Virus record (IMG/VR): IMGVR_UViG_3300031803_000005
Coordinates: 1 to 33,242 of that record
DNA from: a virus
Strand: one strand, 5' to 3'
DNA length: 33,242 nt
Below are positions 20,033 to 32,225 of this stretch, piece by piece. A program made the translations under genes and the position numbers. The notes under the pieces were generated by a model. That model ran no database searches. It was not told the origin of the DNA and saw only the letters and a program-made list of their open reading frames with translations. Numbering within the stretch: position 1 is the first letter of the stretch; every line of letters begins with the position of its first letter.

Positions 20033-20061
20033 ATTACTCGACCGGTTGCTACGCTTTGAAA

Positions 20062-20301
20062 ATGGCAACTATCAGTAATCAGTTTTTGCATAATTTCAAT
20101 TCATTACTCGATAGCCGGGGGCGCGGGGCTCGCGTTGCCTTATCGATCCATCTTGGTTGTTCACGGTCCTTCGTGTCTCACCTAGCGAACGGGCGAAGGG
20201 TCCCAAATCTCGAAACGCTAGGACTCATCGCGGAGTTCTTTAACGTATCTCCACAGCGATTGATCGAAACTAATCTCCAAGTTGTCAACGACCAGGGTTG
20301 A
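20062..20301 (+). CDS. XRE-type helix-turn-helix regulator
   Basis: The 79-residue protein is a single small DNA-binding domain. Residues 20-65 (RVALSIHLGCSRSFVSHLANGRRVPNLETLGLIAEFFNVSPQRLIE) match the XRE/Cro helix-turn-helix pattern, with the recognition helix SRSFVSHLANG and the following ANGRRVPNLETLGLIAEFF segment conserved in the family. ATG 20062 is chosen over an in-frame TTG at 20056. It stands alone after the tail genes and just before a probable promoter (20298-20326). A repressor or Cro-like role in late or early gene control is inferred; no matching repressor partner is visible. Confidence 0.8.
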   Translation: MATISNQFLHNFNSLLDSRGRGARVALSIHLGCSRSFVSHLANGRRVPNLETLGLIAEFFNVSPQRLIETNLQVVNDQG

Positions 20302-20326: not shown

Positions 20327-20363
20327 CCTTTTCGTAGTCCATGTGTTACGGTTCCCCCCGTGA

Positions 20364-20437
20364 CCCCGGTGGCTCATGCGAGCCTGCCCGCGTGAGCGAT
20401 GTTCTATTTGGCAAGTGCCCTACGCGGGCAACCGGGG
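20364..20437 (+). promoter_or_regulatory. Structured 5' RNA: perfect three-way junction covering an RBS
   Basis: Three stems pair without unpaired joints: P1 CCCCGGT/ACCGGGG (20364-20370 with 20431-20437), P2 GGCTC-ATGC-GAGCC (20371-20384) and P3 TGCCCGCGT/ACGCGGGCA (20385-20393 with 20422-20430) closing a 28-base loop. The only purine-rich ribosome-binding-site candidate for the next gene, GGGGA at 20434-20438, is in the 3' strand of P1, nine bases before ATG 20447. A competing hairpin is available: TGCCC at 20416-20420 can pair with GGGCA at 20426-20430, so the element may switch. Function as a cis-regulatory RNA is inferred. Confidence 0.6.
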
Positions 20438-20446
20438 ACTTTTGCA

Positions 20447-20764
20447 ATGAGAAACTACAGCCAAGAAACACCGCGAGTAACGCTCAACGGTCGGGACTAT
20501 TTTATGTCAATGGATTCGACGATCTGGTTTTGGGCCGCCTATGGGATCAGGGGCCGGAGACAAGAGGTGTTGGGCCATAGCGAAGCGGTGTCGGTCCTGC
20601 AGAGGTGTACATGCCAGCGGTCAACCGACTGGCTCCGGGAAGTCGAATTAAAACATTCGGCCAGCGAGAAAAGCAAAACGCAGAAGAGCAGACAGGCCAA
20701 CATAACGCAGCCCTTGCCGCCGCGTAAAGGGCCGGGAAGTTTTGGGAATATGGATCTAGATTGA
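20447..20764 (+). CDS. Hypothetical protein downstream of the structured RNA
   Basis: The 105-residue frame starts at ATG 20447 and ends at TGA 20762-20764, 21 bases before csrA. The N-terminal half has a short aromatic block (LNGRDYFMSMDSTIWFWAAYGIRG) and the C-terminal half is strongly basic (ELKHSASEKSKTQKSRQANITQPLPPRKG). There are two Cys (QRCTCQR). I do not recognise the family. Start choice is supported by the preceding GGGGA in the hairpin; the same stretch is a candidate for translational control. Confidence 0.5.
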   Translation: MRNYSQETPRVTLNGRDYFMSMDSTIWFWAAYGIRGRRQEVLGHSEAVSVLQRCTCQRSTDWLREVELKHSASEKSKTQKSRQANITQPLPPRKGPGSFGNMDLD

Positions 20765-20785
20765 CAAGTGACACGGAGGTCAATG

Positions 20786-20995
20786 ATGCTCGTTTTATCA
20801 CGCAAGAAATCGCAAAGAATCCTCATCGGAGATGGCACCACGGCCGACGCGATAACGATAACCGTGGTTGAGACCGGCGGCCGTTGGGTACGTATCGGGA
20901 TCGACGCGCCACCGGAATACCACGTAATCCGTGAGGAATTGAAGGATCGACCACGCATAGCCAGGAATGGCCGCACGGAGGCGAAGGATGATTGA
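20786..20995 (+). CDS. csrA: CsrA/RsmA-like RNA-binding regulator
   Basis: The 69-residue protein matches CsrA over its full core: MLVLSRKK at the start, ILIGD, VRIGIDAP at about residues 35-42, and YHVIREEL at about 45-52. R49 corresponds to the key RNA-contact arginine (R44 in E. coli CsrA) after a small insertion near residues 17-22 (GTTADA). CsrA dimers bind GGA-containing sites in mRNA leaders and change translation or stability. ATG 20786 is six bases after ACGGAGG (20773-20779); another ATG lies at 20783. Its last eight bases overlap the next gene. A role in re-tuning host translation or its own operon is inferred. Confidence 0.92.
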   Translation: MLVLSRKKSQRILIGDGTTADAITITVVETGGRWVRIGIDAPPEYHVIREELKDRPRIARNGRTEAKDD

Positions 20996-21836
20996 ACTAC
21001 TCGCGGGGATGTCAAACAAGGATTACCACGCGCTTCCTCAGTGGTCCCGATCGCAGCTAGTCGATTACATCGAATCGCCCGAGCTGTTTTTCGGTCGGTA
21101 CGTGTCACAGGAAATCGAACGCAAGCAAGCGACGCCCGCAATGGATTTCGGGATTCTCGTCGATGAATTCCTGACCGAGGGCAAGTTGCCAGATCCGGAG
21201 ATCCCCCGCGACGTCGCTATCATTCCACAAGGAGTGTTAAGCAAGAGCGGATCGCGAGCCGGTAAAACATACAAGGACTGGATGGCGGAAAACGTCAAGC
21301 CGGACCAGGAATCGAAAACGCCGAAGCAATGCCAGGAGTATCGAGAGATCCAGGGGCGCAAGGCGTCGGTCTGCATGCGGATCCAAGAGCAGATCGGGCG
21401 CCATAGGCTGGCCGCGAATCTACTACTCCAAGGCGAGCGGATATTCCAGGGATCGCTAGTGGATGGCGTGATGCGGTCACGGCCGGATCTGATTAGGCCG
21501 GGCCATTGTATCGTCGACGTCAAAACGTCGGCATCGGTGCACGAAGAGCATTTTGCGAGGCAATCGCTAAGCTTTGGATATGACATCCAAGCGGCGATGG
21601 CGTCCGATTTATGGTACGTCCTTAAAGCCGAAATGCTGACGGTCGTCTTCGTGGTAATCCACAACGAGCCGCCGTATGAAATCGCTACATATGAATTCGA
21701 TTCGGCATTCATGGATTATGGGCGACAGCGATACCAGCAGGCGGTCAAAGGGATTACCAGCCGGCGTTTTTTGCCGGACGGTCACGGCGAAGGAAAAGTG
21801 GTACATCTACCCAGGTGGACAAAGGAAATCACATGA
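20988..21836 (+). CDS. RecE-like PD-(D/E)XK exonuclease
   Basis: The 282-residue protein fits the RecE/exonuclease VIII-type nuclease family (DUF3799-like). It has the N-terminal Tyr-rich start (NKDYHALPQWSRSQLVDYIESPELFF), the MDFGILVDEFLTEG block at 52-66, and the catalytic core SRPDLI...CIVDVKTS, where D167, D177 and K179 should coordinate metal and cleave DNA, followed by SFGYDIQAAMASD at 195-207. Such enzymes degrade one strand to create 3' overhangs for annealing. GGAGG at 20977-20981 is suitably placed for ATG 20988, overlapping the csrA stop by 8 bases. The stop overlaps the RecT-like start (ATGA), a common RecE-RecT order. Confidence 0.86.
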   Translation: MIELLAGMSNKDYHALPQWSRSQLVDYIESPELFFGRYVSQEIERKQATPAMDFGILVDEFLTEGKLPDPEIPRDVAIIPQGVLSKSGSRAGKTYKDWMAENVKPDQESKTPKQCQEYREIQGRKASVCMRIQEQIGRHRLAANLLLQGERIFQGSLVDGVMRSRPDLIRPGHCIVDVKTSASVHEEHFARQSLSFGYDIQAAMASDLWYVLKAEMLTVVFVVIHNEPPYEIATYEFDSAFMDYGRQRYQQAVKGITSRRFLPDGHGEGKVVHLPRWTKEIT

Positions 21837-22732
21837 CCACAGAATTGGCGACGGTGAGCGGTGGGATAGTCGACGCTCCGACAACGGTAGGACTTGATAC
21901 AATCCCAGGTTTCGAGCTGGCGCAACGCATTGGAATCATGCTCTCGAAATCTTCAATGGTGCCAAAGGACTACCAGGGGGCGGCGGGCGTGTCCAACTGC
22001 ATCATCGCGCTGAATATGTCTCACCGGACGGGTGCCGACGTTCTGCAGATTATGCAGAATCTTTACATGGTACACGGCCGGCCGGGCTGGAGCAGTCAAT
22101 TCCTAATTGCCACGTTCAACACTTGCGAACGCTACACATCGATCCGCTATCGATTTACCGGCGACAAGGGGACCGATTCTTGGGGCTGTGTTGCCTATGC
22201 TCGCGAGAAGATAGACGGCGTGATCGGCGATTTAATTGAGGGGACCGAAGTAACGATTAAGATGGCCAAGGATGAGGGCTGGCACGGCAAAAGCGGGTCG
22301 AAGTGGAAGACAATGCCCGAGCAGATGCTTAGCTATCGGGCGGCGGCGTTTCTCGCACGGATCTACGCTCCTGAGCTGTCGATGGGGCTACACGCTGCCG
22401 ACGAGCTGCACGACGCGCACGCGGCGCCCGAGGCGACCGTGCACACGGTAACGGTGCAAGAGACGACACCGCATCGCGACGTTCAACGGATGCGGGCGGT
22501 ACTCGTCGATCCGCTGGAGGATGAGGAAATTTCGGACCCTAAATTCGCGGAGATGGATCCGCTATCTATGATCGAGCAATTCCAGCAGGCCGCAGCGAAA
22601 CAAACAACCCGCGAGGGGCTTCGGGATCTTTGCCGTCAATACGAGGAGGATTTTCCGGAAGCTGCTACGGCGCTGGGGGAAGTGTACGCCGATCTGGACG
22701 GCCGATTCAGGGCCGAAGCCGAAAGCGAGTAA
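21833..22732 (+). CDS. recT: RecT-family single-strand annealing protein
   Basis: The 299-residue product has the RecT signatures: an N-terminal LAQRIGIMLSKSSMVPKDYQ segment, NCIIALNMSHRTGADVLQIMQNLYMVHGRPGWSSQFLIATFNTC, a WGCVAYA strand, WKTMPEQMLSYRAAAFLARIYAPELSMGL and the following DELHDAH. These correspond to the annealing core that coats ssDNA and pairs complementary strands. The C-terminal 100 residues are acidic and probably flexible. ATG 21833 overlaps the upstream nuclease stop and has AAAGGA before it. Gene order nuclease-annealing protein and overlap indicate a two-component recombination module for phage DNA replication and repair. Confidence 0.88.
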   Translation: MTTELATVSGGIVDAPTTVGLDTIPGFELAQRIGIMLSKSSMVPKDYQGAAGVSNCIIALNMSHRTGADVLQIMQNLYMVHGRPGWSSQFLIATFNTCERYTSIRYRFTGDKGTDSWGCVAYAREKIDGVIGDLIEGTEVTIKMAKDEGWHGKSGSKWKTMPEQMLSYRAAAFLARIYAPELSMGLHAADELHDAHAAPEATVHTVTVQETTPHRDVQRMRAVLVDPLEDEEISDPKFAEMDPLSMIEQFQQAAAKQTTREGLRDLCRQYEEDFPEAATALGEVYADLDGRFRAEAESE

Positions 22733-23195: not shown

Positions 23196-23306
23196 AGCAC
23201 CTTCGGCCGTTACCTAGGTAGGGCTGAAATGGCATAATGAAACAACTCACGCGGTCTAGGGTCGCCCCTGAAAAGCCGGCAACCTGATCCGGCCTGACCG
23301 CCGTTT
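23196..23306 (+). other. Intergenic region with weak promoter candidate
   Basis: No gene is seen here. A possible promoter, TTACCT (23210-23215) and CATAAT (23233-23238) with a 17-base spacer, has a good -10 but a poor -35. It could read toward the iteron array. Confidence 0.3.
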
Positions 23307-23480
23307 TTTTTCCGCACTTTTCCGCAACGGAGGCGGGGATCGTTCTGGGGATCGACGGAATCCGGCTCGTCAGTTTTCCGCACTTTTCCGCACTTTGCGG
23401 AAACGTCGGCGGGGATCGTTCTAGGGATCGACGGAATCCGGCTCGTCAGTTTTCCGCACTTTTCCGCACTTTGCGGAAAC
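23307..23480 (+). repeat. Iteron array: two 76-bp repeats with TTTTCCGCAC units (candidate replication origin)
   Basis: Unit 1 (23332-23407) and unit 2 (23408-23480, last three bases diverged) are almost identical over 73 bases, with one substitution (TGGGG/TAGGG). Each ends in two adjacent TTTTCCGCAC decamers (23374-23393 and 23450-23469) and an inverted copy TTTGCGGAAA (23394-23403 and 23470-23479). A partial third set, TTTTCCGCACTTTTCCGCA, sits at about 23307-23325. Repeats with inverted flanks just upstream of a replication initiator gene are typical of origin iterons. Each TTTCCGC-ACTTT-GCGGAAA is also a perfect small hairpin. Confidence 0.6.
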
Positions 23481-23559: not shown

Positions 23560-23682
23560 GCGGAAGCCAAAAACACACCTACACGCAAAACCAGAAACCG
23601 CGAATCGATGGCCCCGCAAGGGACCGGCCGAGTGTGTGCCGGGGCAACTATCGTTACGCGGTTTTTTCGTGGAGTTACGGAC

Positions 23683-24834: not shown

Positions 24835-24859
24835 TGACAGTCGAAAAAAAAGAAATGAA

Positions 24860-24894
24860 AAGCCTCGGGCCGCAACGGCTTGAGGCTTTTTTTT
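24860..24894 (+). terminator. Strong intrinsic terminator
   Basis: AAGCCTC (24860-24866) pairs with GAGGCTT (24882-24888), with an inner GCCG-CAA-CGGC stem, followed by a T-run to 24894. An A-run at 24844-24851 upstream would make it work on the minus strand as well. It lies between inverted repeats B and C and probably ends the replication transcript. Confidence 0.85.
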
Positions 24895-25153: not shown

Positions 25154-25181
25154 TTGACGACATTCCGTAGGATGCTAGAAT
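25154..25181 (+). promoter_or_regulatory. Sigma70-type promoter
   Basis: TTGACG (25154-25159) and TAGAAT (25176-25181) each match five of six consensus bases with a 16-base spacer. It precedes the first of the two duplicated genes by about 40 bases and could drive the helicase-methyltransferase segment. Confidence 0.55.
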
Positions 25182-25190
25182 TAGGATATC

Positions 25191-25353
25191 ACGACAATCA
25201 AACAACATACGGGAGAAAAACGATGACAACCAACAACACAGAGGAACACGACAGACTCTACAACATCCTACAGCACCAAGGATTTCACGAAGACACAATC
25301 GACGAGATGACCATTGAGCAGATGCGGGAATTTTCCAGTACCGACGTGATCAA
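25191..25353 (+). repeat. Direct repeat, copy 1 (163 bp; 149 bp exact)
   Basis: Copy 2 begins at 25675, exactly 484 bases downstream. The first 14 bases differ at three positions, then 149 bases (25205-25353) are identical. The repeat holds the RBS (GGGAG), start codon and the first 44 codons of a small gene. Confidence 0.95.
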
Positions 25354-25675: not shown

Positions 25676-25837
25676 CGACGACCAAACCACATACGGGAGA
25701 AAAACGATGACAACCAACAACACAGAGGAACACGACAGACTCTACAACATCCTACAGCACCAAGGATTTCACGAAGACACAATCGACGAGATGACCATTG
25801 AGCAGATGCGGGAATTTTCCAGTACCGACGTGATCAA
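25675..25837 (+). repeat. Direct repeat, copy 2 (163 bp; 149 bp exact)
   Basis: This copy carries the same RBS and first 44 codons as copy 1 but then joins a different C-terminal sequence that overlaps the helicase start. The exact match of 149 bases indicates a recent duplication or ongoing gene conversion. Confidence 0.95.
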
Positions 25838-25883
25838 CTGGAATATCGTAATCGAGTCACTCGGGAGGAACGGAAATGACTGA
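25707..25883 (+). CDS. Duplicated small protein, copy 2
   Basis: The 58-residue frame begins at ATG 25707 behind the same RBS as copy 1. Residues 1-43 are identical to copy 1; the tail is instead INWNIVIESLGRNGND, compared with IKLQRLVFEMDFISG. The stop TGA 25881-25883 overlaps the helicase start (ATG 25876) by 8 bases. The tail therefore couples this small protein to helicase translation, and GGGAGG (25863-25868) inside it serves as helicase RBS. Confidence 0.7.
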   Translation: MTTNNTEEHDRLYNILQHQGFHEDTIDEMTIEQMREFSSTDVINWNIVIESLGRNGND

Positions 25884-28231: not shown

Positions 28232-28449
28232 CCCATTCGATCATCGCTGGCCACAGAGGGCGGGAGCAACACGGCGCAGGCGGTTACACGACGGAGCCAG
28301 ACAACATCCACGGGATGCTGACGTGTATCGAGTGCGTCGCCAATGGAGGGAGCGGCGATCGGATTCAACAATTTGCAATCCGAGAGATCGAAACGCTTTA
28401 CACTAAAATCTATTATGCAACGTTTTATGCTCAGGGTGACGTGTCGTGA
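28228..28449 (+). CDS. Hypothetical protein after the methyltransferase
   Basis: The 73-residue frame starts with an ATG overlapping the methyltransferase stop (ATGA 28228-28231). It has a His- and Gly-rich start (IIAGHRGREQHGAGGYTT), a middle with MLTCIECVANGGSGDRI and a helical aromatic tail (REIETLYTKIYYATFYAQ). There are two Cys spaced CIEC. The overlap supports a real gene, the family is unknown. It ends at 28449, and about 130 bases without a gene follow. Confidence 0.55.
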   Translation: MTHSIIAGHRGREQHGAGGYTTEPDNIHGMLTCIECVANGGSGDRIQQFAIREIETLYTKIYYATFYAQGDVS

Positions 28450-28581
28450 CCCCCCGGTGGGCCGACGTAGGCCCTGCTTGTGTTGTTGTGTTTTTTTGAT
28501 TAGTACTCAGATTGCCAAAAACACGGGCAGCCGGTGGGTTTCGGTGTTGACGCGTCCGAAAAGAATCCGGAAAGTAGACGC
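28450..28581 (+). other. Intergenic spacer with hairpin and T-run
   Basis: GGGCC-GACGTA-GGCCC near 28462-28477 forms a small hairpin, but the T-run (28492-28498) is 14 bases further, so termination is uncertain. No strong promoter stands out; TTGACG at 28547-28552 lacks a good -10. Confidence 0.35.
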
Positions 28582-28770
28582 ATGACAAGAGGTGGAGCAC
28601 GACCCGGCGCCGGCCGGCCCAAATCGCCAGACTCAAAAATCGTTTTCTCCACGAAAATCCACCCAAAAGTGCGTGCATATCTAAAATCCTGCGATAATCA
28701 AGCCAAGACCGTCGAGTCGGCTATCCGCGGGTCTAAGGGGTTTCGGGACTGGGCGGCGAGCACAGGATAG
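28582..28770 (+). CDS. Small basic protein with GARPGAGRP N-terminus
   Basis: The 62-residue protein begins TRGGARPGAGRPKSPDSK, a common opening in phage and mobile-element DNA-binding or regulatory proteins, followed by IVFSTKIHPKVRAYLKSCDNQAKTVESAIRGSKGFRDWA. The second part resembles a ribbon-helix-helix domain, with KIHPKVRAYLKS as strand and first helix, and TVESAIRGSKGFRDW as second helix. It is probably a small DNA-binding regulator. Start ATG 28582 is preceded by GGAAAG. No target is known. Confidence 0.65.
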   Translation: MTRGGARPGAGRPKSPDSKIVFSTKIHPKVRAYLKSCDNQAKTVESAIRGSKGFRDWAASTG

Positions 28771-31022: not shown

Positions 31023-31419
31023 ATTATGTAGGCTCGTCGTCATTGCCTGGGCTGTTGTGCGAGTCGGTGAGCTGATCGCATGCCAAGCCGCTGGGATAAT
31101 CCCGGCGATCGTGGATCCGATCCCGGTAGATGTCGATTGCTTGACAGTCATCATCGTCCGCGAGACAGGCAAGCACGGCACGACCAGCACCGCGCAGCTA
31201 AACGCAATGCAATCCGTCTTGCTTGAGGAGGCGATCGAAGACGCTGGCGGTGAGCTCAGGAAATTCGATCCGGACCAGGCCCCGCCAGGCCATTGGGCGC
31301 CGATCGCAGGCCGGGCTGGCGATCTACCGTGGTGGGGCGTGTATGGGACGCGTTGGGTCGAGGGGGCGTTCCCGAAGAACTTAGAGCAGGCGCTTAAAGT
31401 TGTGGCGGAGTGCCGGTAA
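31000..31419 (+). CDS. Hypothetical protein with N-terminal membrane segment
   Basis: The 139-residue product starts at ATG 31000 inside the previous gene (23-base overlap). The N-terminus (LIKLCRLVVIAWAVVRVGELIACQAAGIIPAI) is hydrophobic. The soluble part contains VDVDCLTVIIVRETGKHGTTSTAQLNAMQSVLLEEAIEDAGG, GHWAPIAGRAGDLPWWGVYGTRWVEGAFPKNLEQAL, a thioredoxin-like or peptidase-inhibitor-like arrangement I cannot place. The stop overlaps the peptidase ATG by one base (TAATG at 31417-31421), so it is probably co-translated with the peptidase. Confidence 0.6.
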   Translation: MSKIKLIKLCRLVVIAWAVVRVGELIACQAAGIIPAIVDPIPVDVDCLTVIIVRETGKHGTTSTAQLNAMQSVLLEEAIEDAGGELRKFDPDQAPPGHWAPIAGRAGDLPWWGVYGTRWVEGAFPKNLEQALKVVAECR

Positions 31420-32225
31420 TGGCCACCCTTGACGGAATCCCGATCATCGACGAATCCAACTATCGATCATATGTTTCGGAAATCGAAACCGAGGGATTCG
31501 GAACCGGATACATCCCCCGGGATTACGACGCGATGCCCGAGGGGAGTCTTGGATTCGCCGACCCATTCGACTTGCCTGTCATACCGCGGGACCAATGGGC
31601 CGAGCGGATTAAGGCGCGGGAAGTTTCGCATTCGCGGATCAGCGATTGGCAACGAAGGAAAAAAGTGAAAGTAAATAGCCAAGGACAGACATCGTTTTGC
31701 TGGGCGCACGGCACGGTCAAAGCCATGGAATTATCCTACGCCATGAGCGGGCACGACTACACGGAGCTGGCACCGGAATCGATCGCGGCACCGATCAAGG
31801 GCTTTCGCAGCCAGGGCGGAAACACGCCAGAGGCGATCCGGTGGCTATCAGCAAAGGGCTGCTGTGAGCGGCAATACTGGCCGAGAAATTCGTACAGTCG
31901 CAGTAACTACACCGACCAGGTTAAGCAAAACGCAATGCTTTGGCGATTGTCTGAATGGCTGGAGTTGTCGCGGAATCGGTTTGATCAGCTAGCGACGTGT
32001 TTATTGTTGGGCTTGCCCGCGGGGATCGGTCTAAAGTGGTGGCGCCACCTTGTGTGTGCAATGGATCTCGTCAAGACGGGCGCCAATTCCTACGGCGTGA
32101 TGATTCTCAATTCATGGGGGCCGGGCTGGGGCGATAACGGCCGCGGGATATTAGAAGAATCGAAGGCGAAAGCGTTTGATCAATACGCTTGCCGGACGGG
32201 GACTTTGCGGGGGCTGGCCGCGTGA
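31419..32225 (+). CDS. Papain-family (C1A) cysteine peptidase
   Basis: The 268-residue protein has a complete C1A active site. The oxyanion glutamine is Q88, six residues before the catalytic C94 in the segment QGQTSFCWAH (papain has the same Q-to-C spacing), H210 lies in LKWWRHLVCAMDLV, and N231 in LNSWGPGWGDNG. It has no signal peptide, so release across the membrane would need the holin. It starts on an overlapped ATG. As no lysozyme, amidase or CHAP gene is seen, this peptidase is the best endolysin-like candidate, attacking the protein part of the envelope; its substrate is an inference. Confidence 0.85.
   Translation: MATLDGIPIIDESNYRSYVSEIETEGFGTGYIPRDYDAMPEGSLGFADPFDLPVIPRDQWAERIKAREVSHSRISDWQRRKKVKVNSQGQTSFCWAHGTVKAMELSYAMSGHDYTELAPESIAAPIKGFRSQGGNTPEAIRWLSAKGCCERQYWPRNSYSRSNYTDQVKQNAMLWRLSEWLELSRNRFDQLATCLLLGLPAGIGLKWWRHLVCAMDLVKTGANSYGVMILNSWGPGWGDNGRGILEESKAKAFDQYACRTGTLRGLAA

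Follow-up and report, generated by a model that had tools for sequence, protein, structure and literature searches.

We describe a pair of related RNA structures in the genome of an uncultured bacterial virus, each a three-way junction with no base between its stems, and, leaving its partner aside, we are confident that they form a real two-copy cis-acting RNA element. The window, by which we mean the whole stretch of DNA analysed, is a virus record of 33,242 bases, and all the genes followed in it lie on the plus strand. The element is most likely a cis-acting RNA shape in early transcripts. Its two copies are laid out as follows:

20364-20437, plus strand: copy 1 of the element, 74 nt, a three-way junction without linker bases
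20364-20370 (CCCCGGT) paired with 20431-20437 (ACCGGGG), plus strand: stem A of copy 1, 7 bp
20371-20375 (GGCTC) paired with 20380-20384 (GAGCC), plus strand: stem B of copy 1, 5 bp, loop ATGC
20385-20393 (TGCCCGCGT) paired with 20422-20430 (ACGCGGGCA), plus strand: stem C of copy 1, 9 bp
28452-28536, plus strand: copy 2 of the element, 85 nt, a covariance-model match that also folds independently
28454-28458/28530-28534, 28459-28463/28470-28474 and 28475-28484/28520-28529, plus strand: copy 2 stem A (core), stem B and stem C

The original prediction had described copy 1 as three stems of 7, 5 and 9 base pairs joined without an unpaired base; its coordinates are exact, and both the predicted fold and the shuffled controls agree with it. 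A tenth pair, G20394.T20421, is possible in stem C (20385-20394/20421-20430), and there are 0 unpaired bases between the stems of 7, 5 and 9 (10 with the G.U) pairs. The minimum free energy of the 74-mer 20364-20437 is -41.9 kcal/mol (ViennaRNA), with arms A, B and C each formed at a probability of at least 0.96 in all flanks tried, and folding of the 121-nt region around it (20330-20450) recovered the three-way junction with z = -3.2. When RNA was folded at growing lengths, an alternative hairpin at 20372-20397, absent from the original prediction, was favoured only transiently. A scan for perfect Watson-Crick junctions with zero linkers placed copy 1 first in the window with 21 pairs, while 100 dinucleotide-shuffled versions of the window gave at most 18; once G.U pairs were admitted and each 1-kb block kept its composition, the score of copy 1 was reached in 0 of 400 shuffles. 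The structured RNA at 20364-20437 is very probably real.

Copy 2, which the original prediction had overlooked, was found using cmsearch with a covariance model (R1) built from copy 1 alone. The match scored 28.7 bits, with an E-value of 0.0003 for a search of the window only with filters off and of 0.009 when 1.05 Mb was searched, whereas the best score outside this genome, in about 1 Mb of other phage DNA, was 21.2 bits. Folded alone, copy 2 adopts the same three-way junction (z = -3.8), and no shuffle equals it. Of 42 stem letters the two copies share 32, whereas 1500 shuffles gave at most 22, and because of this identity we take 28452-28536 as a real second copy, on structure and stem sequence combined. 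A match on the minus strand at 20364 was set aside as a mere reflection of the palindromic arms of copy 1, and no third copy was found.

The stems of the two copies carry 12 differences, and even so they retain 21 of their 22 pairs. Fourteen of these 22 aligned pairs are identical, 3 have changed on one side to G.U, 4 have changed on both sides and still pair, and the sole broken pair falls in the outer part of stem A; the stored alignment, which omits the tenth pair of stem C, holds 3 double changes on 21 pairs. Keeping as many pairs has a P of about 0.0005 under a simple random-substitution null, a value biased by the discovery of copy 2 with a structure-aware model that rewards pairing and so favours paired changes. 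Shifting the partner by one column lowers pairing from 98% to 50% or less, and a column-shuffle control (62/500) is weak with an alignment of two rows only. The covariance-model alignment was used throughout, MAFFT having placed the arms out of register. The original prediction had looked to related phages for covariation; base-pair covariation is indeed present, but its source is a second copy in the same genome, and all the conservation evidence comes from these two copies. Given differences that preserve pairing, the fold probably matters. Sequence is also conserved around stem A and the junction (CCGGTGG ... GGGCARCCGG), the letters kept being CCCCGGTGG on the 5' side and CGGGCARCCGG on the 3' side.

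The features around and between the two copies are these:

up to 20032, plus strand: terminase, major head protein and other genes, upstream of copy 1
20056-20301, plus strand: HTH regulator, just upstream of copy 1
20447-20764, plus strand: orphan 105-codon gene immediately following copy 1, with the SD candidate GGGGA at 20434-20438
20783-20995, plus strand: csrA (CsrA family, PF02599, E 4.8e-18), the second gene behind copy 1
20988-21836, plus strand: exonuclease VIII-like gene in the same block behind copy 1
21830-22732, plus strand: RecT-like annealing protein in the same block behind copy 1
23249-23316, plus strand: int-alpA RNA (Rfam RF02996; score 37.8 bits, cut-off 35.8), with a T8 tail near 23304 and no integrase or alpA gene noticed next to it
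24859-24894, plus strand: strong intrinsic-terminator-like hairpin with T8 (-22.6 kcal/mol), between the two copies
25154-25181: promoter-like site, TTGACG-16-TAGAAT with a TG extension, a good match
28582-28770, plus strand: small gene (MTRGGARPGAGRPK...), 45 nt behind copy 2, with the SD GGAAAG (28569-28574) not occluded

Copy 1 occupies a gap of 145 nt, and genes for an SNF2-type helicase and a methyltransferase lie on the plus strand further downstream of its block, while the gap that holds copy 2 runs from a small gene ending at 28449 to ATG 28582. Both copies are intergenic, on the same strand and ahead of a gene block, with 9 and 45 nt separating their ends from the start codon that follows, and both sit in the early or replication half of the phage genome. 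The hairpin at 24859-24894 followed by the promoter-like site at 25154-25181 is, to judge from the sequence, likely to mark a transcription-unit boundary. The promoter that had been proposed at 20298 does have a TTGACG box, but its -10 box is poor and it fails the scan; near both copies there are only weak promoter-like boxes, as expected by chance.

Several other features of the window deserve mention in their own right. Long direct repeats with TTTTCCGCACTTTTCCGCAC and GATCGACGGAATCCGGCTCGTCAG occupy about 23304-23480, ahead of an ORF at 23608, and this region looks iteron- or origin-like. There is also a near-identical duplication of about 145 nt (about 25206-25352 and 25690-25838) which holds the start of a small ORF (MTTNNTEEHDRLYNILQHQGFHED...), its copies diverging after TDVI, and the plus-strand phage gene at 31410-32225 has a papain-family cysteine protease domain (PF00112, E 8.8e-07).

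A search of Rfam 15 gave no family at or above the gathering cut-off and only a chance-level match to RNase MRP (E 2.3), which upholds the original view that no known class has this layout. Models R1 and R2 gave no credible match in related-phage loci totalling about 1 Mb or in about 50 whole records, and two degenerate pattern scans of viral contigs returned 40 and 104 matches, none with the junction. By model, pattern and BLAST, no orthologs of the element were found among close and distant phage relatives, an absence that is not strong evidence. The 105-codon protein likewise has no relatives in viral contigs, bacterial and archaeal genome contigs, phages, Pfam or PHROGs. Two candidates were rejected. 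The L155 match is antisense inside an ORF of 817 codons, and its fold is no better than those of shuffled sequences; a 25-nt match in Streptomyces phage JustBecause does not have the junction and is next to a YrlA-like RNA. That YrlA-like (Y RNA) match, sub-threshold and located at L259 1527-1597 on the minus strand, adjoins genes for a Ro-like protein and an RNA ligase, and is plausibly an unannotated phage Y RNA.

As to what the element does, antitermination in the manner of put or nut is the reading we tentatively put forward, by analogy. The folded RNA would be recognised as a shape while leaving RNA polymerase, with the nascent element binding the elongation complex by itself or with a phage or host factor as intermediary. 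The polymerase carrying it could then read past early-region terminators, among them the T8 hairpin at 24859-24894 and the T8 tail that ends int-alpA near 23304. At copy 1 the same fold would additionally throttle translation of the adjacent 105-codon gene. Read-through would be a sensible function because these strong terminator-like signals separate copy 1 from the helicase and methyltransferase genes. Against this, transcription of the downstream genes could start at the good promoter-like site at 25154 and need no antitermination, and the promoters predicted upstream of the copies are at chance level.

Readings as an operator, or as an RNase III site or stabilising leader, fit almost as well as antitermination. 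It is possible, and we hold this with caution, that a phage or host protein recognises the junction in mRNA leaders and controls the translation or stability of the next genes, acting at copy 1 through locking or unlocking of the ribosome-binding site. Both copies do precede genes and the sequence of the junction and stem A is conserved between them, but no candidate protein was identified. The original prediction placed the SD of ATG 20447 in the 3' strand of the closing stem; the GGGG of GGGGA does lie inside stem A, predicted to be almost fully paired except for its last G, but the A (20438) lies outside. Opening the ribosome footprint of this ATG has a computed cost of 19.6 kcal/mol, whereas seven other genes in the window require 6.7-14.1. 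The occlusion behind the proposed translational switch is supported at copy 1 but not at copy 2, where the site is open, the footprint of ATG 28582 having a computed opening cost of 9.2 kcal/mol and its SD lying beyond the element. Because copy 2 leaves its SD free, occlusion is a trait of copy 1 and not of the element, which tells against an operator of this kind.

The two refinements of that switch, sensing of the phage CsrA and bistability, were not borne out. CsrA is the sole RNA-binding regulator seen, but the single GGA of copy 1 falls within its SD and copy 2 lacks this motif altogether; inspection of the sequence found no CsrA-type GGA (ANGGAN) in loops near the SD in either copy. The competing helix between TGCCC and GGGCA is present in the sequence of copy 1, but its equilibrium probability is near 0, and in copy 2 the alternative is worse by about 10 kcal/mol or more (-17.9 against -28.3 for the bare junction or -35.1 for the minimum free energy fold). 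We rejected a bistable riboswitch, as two folds of similar stability are not conserved between the copies. Since copy 2 lacks occlusion, GGA and a competitive fold, a CsrA-responsive or bistable switch of the ribosome-binding site is not what the copies have in common. Separately, csrA and the exonuclease gene share an SD context, CACGGAGG...ATG (20772-20788 and 20974-20990), which fits the CsrA core ANGGAN, and autoregulation by the phage CsrA is possible through it.

We think it rather unlikely that the element is an RNase III processing site or a stabilising 5' leader, in which the long irregular arm C would be cut or would protect early mRNA. The intergenic position on one strand suits such a role, as does arm C itself, which in both copies is an irregular hairpin (about 10 + 3 + 2-4 pairs). 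The distal sequences of the arm differ between the copies, but its outline is shared: a ten-pair helix, a small internal loop, a three-pair helix, a small bulge and a short helix of 2-4 pairs. An RNase III site, however, needs neither the conserved zero-linker junction nor the conserved sequence of stem A.

An element acting at the DNA level, such as a mobile short palindrome (MITE/REP-like), a structured origin or a protein-binding palindrome duplicated in the genome, appears improbable. The two intergenic copies are each preceded by CGTGA and a run of C, and copy 1 ends in a terminal inverted repeat (CCCCGGT/ACCGGGG), but that repeat carries one mismatch in copy 2 and no transposase was identified. 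Moreover, four pair cells are G.U solely when the plus strand is read as RNA and become A.C mismatches on the opposite strand; the pairing of copy 2 is kept through G.U on the plus strand. This asymmetry speaks for an RNA made together with the downstream genes rather than for a DNA palindrome, and because of it a mobile palindrome fits less well. Finally, it is very unlikely that the second copy arose by chance and that copy 1 is a lone stable leader which does no more than brake translation of the 105-codon gene. Judged by structure score alone, 25 of 400 shuffled windows contain a junction that equals copy 2; when stem sequence is counted as well, none of 1500 shuffles comes close, and the model score of copy 2 clearly exceeds any in 1 Mb of other phage DNA.

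With two copies, compensatory-mutation tests are straightforward. Even as a translational or processing element, this would still be an RNA layout absent from Rfam, and its two natural variants would reveal which parts must pair. The fuller claim of a new class of phage cis-acting RNA, with a zero-linker junction, two members per genome and antitermination by a fold other than put or nut, strikes us as doubtful.

Among known systems, purine and TPP riboswitches, in which unpaired conserved bases bind the ligand, resemble the element in having three stems in an mRNA leader with possible control of the ribosome-binding site; they differ in that the junction here has 0 unpaired bases and no Rfam match. 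T7 has several early RNase III sites, irregular hairpins that lie between early genes on the coding strand; these are simple hairpins, in contrast to the conserved three-way junction described here. Lambda nut consists of a linear boxA and a 15-nt boxB hairpin; it shares with the element the presence of two transcribed cis elements in early operons, but no boxA/boxB layout is seen here and no N-like protein was identified. The closest parallel is with the put RNAs of HK022 (putL and putR), two RNAs of about 70 nt and similar sequence downstream of early promoters. Each forms two adjacent stem-loops arranged as a V, whose fork holds a G35-A9 pair, and they suppress termination with no need for a phage protein (PMC9378689). 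Antitermination by put is factor-independent and works through the zinc-binding domain of the RNAP beta' subunit. As with put, there are two sequence-related elements in the phage genome on the same strand, of 74 and 85 nt here; unlike put, which has two stems and no closing stem, both copies are predicted to have a third, closing stem. Model R2 found nothing at E <= 1 in the HK022 early region (24000-36000). Because of the closing stem, the lack of an HK022 match and the weak promoters ahead of the copies, the likeness is an analogy and is not membership. If it acts on transcription, the element would solve, with an unrelated fold, the same problem as HK022 put and lambda nut, and would do so in a phage far removed from these model systems.
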